In this document: one piece after another, positions 30,203 to 31,402 of the stretch
How the letters are laid out: each line of letters opens with the position of its first letter
How positions within the stretch are numbered: position 1 is the first letter of the stretch
Source: an uncultured Roseiflexaceae bacterium
GTDB lineage: Bacteria; Chloroflexota; Chloroflexia; Chloroflexales; Roseiflexaceae
Length of the DNA: 32,023 nucleotides
Direction: 5' to 3'
Assembly (NCBI GenBank): GCA_903889425.1
Contig: CAISXI010000032.1
Span: 1 to 32,023 of the forward strand
The notes under the pieces: model-generated
Told to the model about the DNA's origin: nothing
Databases searched by the model: none
What the model saw: only the letters and a program-made list of their open reading frames with translations
Made by a program: the position numbers and the translations under genes

Positions 30203-30238
30203 TTGACGGACTTAAGTGTCAAGATTATAATTAATCTT
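30203..30238 (+). promoter_or_regulatory. Rhodopsin promoter with a palindrome over the -10 box
   Basis: TTGACG (30203-30208) and a perfect TATAAT (30226-30231) have a 17-base spacer. AAGATTA-TAAT-TAATCTT (30221-30238) is a perfect inverted repeat centred on the -10 box and reaching the expected start point, an ideal repressor site. The leader would be about 115 bases and contains a GTGTGT/ACACAC hairpin before the AAGGAAAG ribosome site at 30338-30345. Confidence 0.65.
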
Positions 30239-30353
30239 AACTACAAATGCTCGCAAATTCCGTACAAACAAATGCGTTAAACAAATGTTACACGCGACAA
30301 GTGTGTGTTTTTCGTAGATACACACAAAAATCACACGAAGGAAAGAAGTTAAG

Positions 30354-31124
30354 ATGAATTTACTGCCCGAATTGTTGTCATCACAGTACTCACTGGTATA
30401 CAACATCCTGAGTTTTACTATTGCTAGTATGGGCGCTTCATTCGTGTTCTTCTTGATGGCCCGCCAACAAGTTGGTGTTACGTATCGTCCAGCCCTTCTT
30501 TTCTCTGCGTTGGTTGTCGGTATCGCTTGTTATCACTACTTCCGGATTTTCGATAGCTTTGAATCAGCATATGCATTGGCTGATGGCGTTTACAAGCCAA
30601 GCGGCAAGCCTTTCAATGATGCGTATCGCTATGTCGACTGGATGTTGACCGTCCCCCTATTGCTGGTGGAATTGGTCGCTGTATTGCATCTAGCCAAAGA
30701 CGTGAGCCGCAAAATGCTCGTGAACCTCATCATTGCAGCTGTTTTGATGATTGGTCTGGGGTATATTGGCGAAGGCGAGCTTACAAACATGACGACTCGC
30801 GCCATCTGGGGCACGTTGAGCAGCATTCCGTTTGTGTACATTCTGTATGTGCTTTGGGTTGAATTGGGCACACAGGTCAAAACCCAGAGTGAGACCGTGC
30901 GTGGTTTGCTCAAAATTACCCGTGTAGTACTCGTTGCGACTTGGGGCGTTTATCCGGTCACCTACTTATTGCCCATGCTTGGTATCGATATTCAATCCTC
31001 AGTGGTTGCGATTCAAGTAGGGTATGCGTTGGCAGACGTGGCCGCCAAATGTGGCTACGGCTTGTTGATCTTTTTCATTGCTCGCGCCAAGAGCGAAGAA
31101 GACGGCAGTTTGCCAGTAGCATAG
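30354..31124 (+). CDS. Xanthorhodopsin-like light-driven proton pump
   Basis: A 256-residue seven-helix microbial rhodopsin of the inner membrane that should pump protons outward on illumination. Helix C reads RYVDWMLTVPLLLVEL: proton acceptor D95, T99 and donor E106 make the DTE triad of proteorhodopsin and xanthorhodopsin. H61 in helix B matches the His that partners the acceptor Asp. L103 is at the tuning site of green-absorbing proteorhodopsin (L105). Helix G has D228 and the retinal Schiff-base K232. In helix E, IWGTLSS aligns with bacteriorhodopsin VWWAIST, so G153 replaces Trp138; in xanthorhodopsin the equivalent Gly156 opens the carotenoid-antenna site. AAGGAAAG precedes the ATG by 8 bases. 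No retinal synthesis gene is nearby. Confidence 0.96.
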   Translation: MNLLPELLSSQYSLVYNILSFTIASMGASFVFFLMARQQVGVTYRPALLFSALVVGIACYHYFRIFDSFESAYALADGVYKPSGKPFNDAYRYVDWMLTVPLLLVELVAVLHLAKDVSRKMLVNLIIAAVLMIGLGYIGEGELTNMTTRAIWGTLSSIPFVYILYVLWVELGTQVKTQSETVRGLLKITRVVLVATWGVYPVTYLLPMLGIDIQSSVVAIQVGYALADVAAKCGYGLLIFFIARAKSEEDGSLPVA

Positions 31125-31136
31125 TCGGTCTCCGTT

Positions 31137-31173
31137 TGAACCTAGGCTTTCACTATATGAAAGCCTAGGTTCA
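31137..31173 (+). repeat. Perfect 16-bp hairpin between the rhodopsin and the small membrane protein
   Basis: A 16-bp perfect stem with a CTATA loop starts 12 bases after the rhodopsin stop. It is followed by ATCGTTTAG rather than a T-run, so it is more likely to protect the rhodopsin message end, or to lower readthrough into the next gene, than to terminate fully. Confidence 0.75.
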
Positions 31174-31195: not shown

Positions 31196-31402
31196 ATGAT
31201 GAGACAACAACCGTGGCTGAGACTATTGGGTAGTGTCGTCGTTGGTGCAGTGCTTGGCGGTTTGTTTGGTGTCGTGTTTGGCTGGATCGCTTCTTGGTTT
31301 TCAAATGGTCCTGATGTATGGCAAGGTATCCGCGAATCTGCGCCATGGTTCGCAGTGATGGGTATCGTTGCAGGGTTCTTGATGAGCATTGAAAAGCAGT
31401 AA
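31196..31402 (+). CDS. Small membrane protein with a four-glycine zipper
   Basis: I do not recognise this 68-residue protein. It has a basic N-terminus (MMRQQPWLRLL), a first hydrophobic helix at about 10-35 and a second at about 48-65 separated by a polar loop with Asn, Asp and Trp. G17, G21, G25 and G29 are spaced exactly four apart, a glycine zipper, a pattern that drives close packing of membrane helices. It may pair with itself or with another membrane protein. It lies 71 bases after the rhodopsin on the same strand, separated by a hairpin, and has no obvious promoter of its own, so it is probably cotranscribed. ATG 31199 is an equally possible start; the ribosome site is weak (AGAAAG). 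Confidence 0.7.
   Translation: MMRQQPWLRLLGSVVVGAVLGGLFGVVFGWIASWFSNGPDVWQGIRESAPWFAVMGIVAGFLMSIEKQ

Follow-up and report, generated by a model that had tools for sequence, protein, structure and literature searches.

The xanthorhodopsin (XR) Kin4B8 requires Gly153; binding of zeaxanthin depends critically on Ser208, and Tyr209 assists energy transfer (PMC12308411). Positions 204, 205, 208 and 209, which form the floor of the carotenoid pocket, read Y A S Y in Kin4B8, Y M M A in Salinibacter XR and Y L M L in Gloeobacter rhodopsin (GR; PMC12308411). Antenna-capable XRs have been proposed for freshwater Chloroflexi, in which as many as 10 of the 12 residues that contact salinixanthin are conserved (PMC6169038). 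Dual phototrophy has been reported for Roseiflexus (PMC7762795, PMC5459899, PMC7701988), and Roseiflexus strains produce 4-keto-myxocoxanthin glucosides and fatty-acyl esters (PMC3368417), compounds that are close to salinixanthin. Roseiflexus with an XR also has a gap in its retinal enzymes, for which an unknown cleavage enzyme or community-shared retinal has been suggested (PMC5459899). UBA965 is a lake genus listed among the genera known to contain pufM (PMC10103773).

The window analysed here, the whole 32,023-nucleotide stretch, is contig C32 of a 3.63-Mb metagenome-assembled genome (MAG; 90% complete) of an uncultured Roseiflexaceae bacterium. The product of the rhodopsin gene that it carries shares 99% identity with the rhodopsin of Roseiflexaceae bacterium UBA965 (L002). 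The protein is of a well-described kind, an XR, and the idea of an antenna-capable XR in freshwater Chloroflexi is already in print and not new. What is added is a keto prediction, which corrects the carotenoid class, and a linked small gene. Taken as a whole, the locus is rather more probably than otherwise that of a green-absorbing XR proton pump with a 4-keto antenna, acting beside a reaction centre and with a small accessory protein. The features are collected in Table 1.

Table 1. Features of the rhodopsin region, in positions of the window
Feature	Position	Strand	Basis
Possible sigma-70-type promoter, TTGACG-17-TATAAT, 11/12 consensus	30203..30231	+	consensus match only
Ribosome-binding-like GAAGGAAAG before ATG of rhodopsin	30337..30345	+	read directly
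Xanthorhodopsin-clade proton pump (predicted), 256 aa plus stop	30354..31124	+	translation, alignment, Pfam, AF2 model
D95 codon (counterion / proton acceptor)	30636..30638	+	residue positions, alignment
T99 codon	30648..30650	+	
E106 codon	30669..30671	+	
G153 codon, fenestration Gly equivalent to XR Gly156	30810..30812	+	gap-free alignment
Y204-L209 codons; Y204, L205, M208 and L209 = carotenoid pocket floor, as in GR	30963..30980	+	alignment, published rule
K232 codon	31047..31049	+	
15-bp perfect inverted repeat, 5-nt loop, between pump and small gene	31138..31172	+	
68-aa Gly-rich two-helix membrane protein (predicted), linked to XR across phyla	31196..31402	+	

The rhodopsin reading frame matches Pfam Bac_rhodopsin at 5.9e-39. 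The residues named in the preliminary description (H61, D95, T99, L103, E106, G153, D228 and K232) all stand at those positions in the translation, and the DTE triad, the TM2 His and the Schiff-base Lys are those of the XR clade. The closest solved relatives are psXR, XR, GR and Kin4B8, at 55-56% identity. The equivalence of G153 to XR Gly156, also put forward earlier, is borne out by an alignment without gaps, in which G153 falls on Gly153 of Kin4B8 and the equivalent Gly of GR, psXR and TR as well. The fenestration thus has Gly and no bulky residue; bacteriorhodopsin has Trp at the corresponding position. Together with Y204, a Tyr at the position of XR Tyr207, G153 provides the residues expected of an antenna-binding XR (rule from PMC12308411). 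The AF2 model, built from 47 homologues (pLDDT 93.6), has the predicted seven-helix fold of the clade and superposes on 9wfa, 7ytb, 6nwd, 8i2z and 3ddl with Z of 33-35. For example, Z is 33.3 at 1.6 A against XR (3ddl) and 34.6 at 1.5 A against zeaxanthin-bound Kin4B8 (8i2z).

Among the 53 rows compared, D95, T99, L103, E106, H61, D228 and K232 are invariant (53/53); at position 153, G stands in 40 rows, F and W in 6 each and S in 1. As judged by sequence, the match to the DTE triad plus fenestration Gly is far beyond chance, yet it is a clade-wide feature. The combination, singled out at first as notable, is therefore widespread, and an earlier study had put it forward for freshwater Chloroflexi (PMC6169038). 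Between the window XR and that of locus L003, dN/dS is about 0.14, indicating strong purifying selection. Sigma-70-type sites such as the one upstream are no more numerous in the region than in shuffles, and an Rfam search of the window gave no match.

GR (6nwd) and psXR (9wfa) share with the window XR the 55-56% identity, the Y L M L floor, the Gly and the triad; the window XR nevertheless groups apart from them in the tree and has a small downstream gene that most XR loci examined lack. Salinibacter XR (3ddl) is alike in Gly156, Tyr207 and the hydrophobic floor equivalents, the triad and the fold. It differs in its Y M M A floor, against Y L M L here, and neither Blh nor a PF05834 cyclase was detected in the window's genome. 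Kin4B8 (7ytb, 8i2z) shares the Gly, the fold, the triad and a C-terminal AKSE-DGSLP motif, but its floor is polar, A/S/Y as against L/M/L in the window XR. Kin4B8 also binds 4-ketocarotenoids.

The floor of the window XR, Y L M L at 204/205/208/209, is the same as in GR and psXR. Hydrophobic residues at Kin4B8 positions 208/209 mark the 4-keto subtype and polar ones the 3-hydroxy subtype of Kin4B8 and KR1; the window XR has M208 and L209, that is, the former and not the latter. Because the floor equals that of GR, the pocket should suit a 4-keto ring under this published rule, which rests on few proteins. Profile searches of the window's genome found CrtB, CrtI-family and CrtD-like desaturases, CruF and a putative CrtO-type ketolase. 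CrtO is the best NCBIfam family for the ketolase, at 389 bits, below the equivalog cut-off of 1000, and the protein shares 72% identity across 528 aa with an ORF of the Roseiflexaceae genome G013. No CrtZ-family hydroxylase was detected in the window's genome, and none of the UBA965 genomes has a convincing PF05834 lycopene cyclase; G013 has one. Pocket and gene content point to a 4-keto monocyclic carotenoid (4-keto-gamma-carotene or a salinixanthin-like 4-keto-myxocoxanthin glycoside) as the most likely native antenna, and not to a 3-hydroxy xanthophyll. Of the preliminary description, the DTE proton pump with an open fenestration in a host with carotenoid genes is supported, but its hydroxylated carotenoids are probably wrong, given the hydrophobic TM6 floor of GR/XR type, the putative ketolase and the lack of a CrtZ-family hit. 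Whether a few fenestration-floor residues predict the carotenoid of an XR becomes testable, the prediction here being keto against a first guess of hydroxy. Beside crtB in the same genome lies a gene for a MerR plus B12-binding regulator with a CarH/LitR-like domain set (L124, 12950-13924, minus strand), which may make carotenoid synthesis light-dependent.

In such a system the green-absorbing XR would pump protons outward, with K232 carrying the Schiff base, D95 together with H61 serving as counterion and acceptor and E106 as donor. G153 would open a side fenestration in which a carotenoid is held alongside the retinal ring; this pigment would take up blue-green light and pass the energy to retinal. 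The pump would act in the same cell as a bacteriochlorophyll type-II reaction centre. It would be inherited, and perhaps expressed, with the 68-aa protein encoded just downstream of the hairpin, which might aid assembly, carotenoid loading or oligomer packing.

The tree places the window XR with those of its genus, then with L005 (Candidatus Tanganyikabacteria) and with L006, L007, L009, L010 and L012 (Bdellovibrionota), with clade support of 98/98. The XRs of the family members G013 and G014 fall elsewhere, beside GR. Vertical inheritance of XR within Roseiflexaceae was rejected on these placements. Since the G013 and G014 XRs fall apart from that of UBA965, we infer that the family acquired XR at least twice.

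The XR cluster of L010 contains genes for a polyprenyl synthase, CrtI, CrtB, a CrtW ketolase, CruF, an acyltransferase, a glycosyltransferase and a lycopene cyclase-Blh fusion, a set that, by its annotation, could make a salinixanthin-type acyl glycoside plus retinal. Genes matching this carotenoid cluster are also found in L007, L009 and L012. Keto-carotenoid clusters around the XRs of relatives thus support a keto antenna in the predicted pumps of this subclade. The fusion gene of L010, an Oligoflexales locus, encodes a 681-aa protein in which the lycopene cyclase is joined to a Brp/Blh retinal-forming dioxygenase (L010, 10809-12851, minus strand, beside XR).

The same clusters, and the putative ketolase encoded in the window's genome, weigh against a plain proton pump whose fenestration is empty or filled with lipid, the Gly being ancestral and unused. 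That the Gly is clade-wide (40/53), that binding has been demonstrated for few members (PMC12308411) and that the congener XR of L004 has lost Tyr204 all speak for such a pump. In other clades, however, W or F closes the site, so descent by itself does not account for the Gly, and we regard an unused fenestration as unlikely. Residues other than Tyr at 204 occur in 4/13 closed-fenestration rows versus 1/40 open rows of the 53 (Fisher p 0.01, uncorrected for phylogeny).

The congener just mentioned, G010, has F204 and I208 in place of Y204 and M208 in its XR (L004, 10001-10762). No match to the CrtO-type ketolase was seen in the G010 genome, which is 98% complete, and a joint loss of the keto antenna is possible there.

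A 3-hydroxylated xanthophyll (zeaxanthin or lutein, for instance), bound as in Kin4B8 and perhaps scavenged from algae, is a poorer candidate for the antenna and, in our view, improbable. Both classes fit beside the same Gly, and 3-hydroxy xanthophylls work well as antennas in Kin4B8, KR1 and others (PMC12308411); against this, the floor of the window XR has no polar equivalents of Ser208 and Tyr209, and the search for a CrtZ-family hydroxylase in the genome was negative. That the protein lacks retinal in its native cell and stays in the apo form, or is a decaying horizontally acquired gene, as the lack of any Blh or CCD hit and an XR in only 4/11 genomes of the genus might suggest, is very improbable in view of a dN/dS of about 0.14 against L003, which marks strong purifying selection between species, and of the same retinal gap published for Roseiflexus (PMC5459899).

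The preferred reading, a 4-keto antenna pump, places the XR in a cell with further phototrophic equipment. The window's genome encodes a fused PufLM (type-II reaction centre), and type-II reaction centre genes and a proton-pump rhodopsin occur together in it and in G009 and G010. On gene content (PufLM plus XR) the organism could be a dual phototroph. The four UBA965 genomes with XR are the window's own (G000), G008, G009 and G010, loci L003 and L004 belonging to G008 and G010, respectively. Contamination as the origin of the XR contig was rejected, with orthologues in three other MAGs of the genus and flanks shared in G008. The public MAG titles Singulisphaera (L003) and Thermoflexus (L004) look wrong; match positions make both UBA965-genus genomes. 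G008, which is 94% complete, has the XR and no PufLM match, and may be a member of the genus that relies on rhodopsin alone.

Neither Blh (PF15461) nor CCD (PF03055) was detected in G000, G008, G009, G010, G013 or G014; of other XR genomes, three gave a hit in the Blh search and one in the CCD search. The window's genome, at 90% completeness, accordingly has no recognizable enzyme for its own retinal synthesis, although one may lie in the missing part. Two neighbouring genes were considered as retinal or carotenoid enzymes and rejected: the amine-oxidase-like gene near the G010 XR is oriented oppositely, and its surroundings have just XR and the small ORF in common with the window; the OYE-like flavoenzyme downstream of the G013 XR matches FadH/OYE families. 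Dual-phototrophic Roseiflexus (RS-1 and mat populations) and the window's organism are alike in family, fused PufLM, XR and the absence of a detected retinal oxygenase. They differ in that the UBA965 XR belongs to the Bdellovibrionota/Tanganyikabacteria subclade, apart from the G013/G014 XRs, and has the small partner gene. A freshwater genus thus joins the retinal-source problem of the dual-phototrophic Chloroflexota.

A conserved small gene adjoining the rhodopsin gene was missed in the preliminary description. Helices are predicted in its product at residues 6-32 and 41-66 (model pLDDT 90.3), and the invariant residues include G21, F24, G25, F28, G29, A32, F35, G38, P39, G44, W51, F52 and G56. 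The gene is found near XR, always on the XR strand, in all 10 subclade members (window, L002-L007, L009, L010 and L012) and in L020 (Ignavibacteria); it is absent from every other XR locus fetched, the loci extending up to 10 kb on either side. Its position varies: it is just upstream of XR in L007, beside crtB in L009, and in L010 its start overlaps the CrtW stop. The flanks of the window, L004, L006 and L020 have only XR and the small ORF in common. These also seem to be the sole shared genes in L005, a weaker comparison, an antisense frame having been called over XR there. Between the window and L003 the small gene shows dN of 0.082 and dS of 0.495, i.e., purifying selection.

No Pfam or NCBIfam family matches the small protein at its cut-off, there is no plasmid or viral match, and a structure search returned generic two-helix matches only (the best with Z 8.1 at 3.6 A across 67 residues). 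No description of this XR-linked gene was found in the literature searched. From conservation and linkage we propose that the protein is a pump or antenna accessory. More specifically, and tentatively, it could be a dedicated partner of this XR subclade, with a role in, e.g., carotenoid loading, insertion or oligomer packing, transferred with the pump across phyla (Chloroflexota, Tanganyikabacteria, Bdellovibrionota and Ignavibacteria); this is a real possibility, short of an even chance. If true, a rhodopsin photosystem would have an accessory subunit not described before. With a small gene linked to this pump or its pigment genes in several phyla, the question of protein partners for some rhodopsin pumps becomes testable.

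Intercistronic hairpins occur in operons such as puf. The strong hairpin between XR and the small gene in the window has positional counterparts in L003, L004, L005 and L006, although their sequences differ. If the two genes are co-transcribed, the hairpin may, by analogy with such operons, set a high pump-to-partner ratio.
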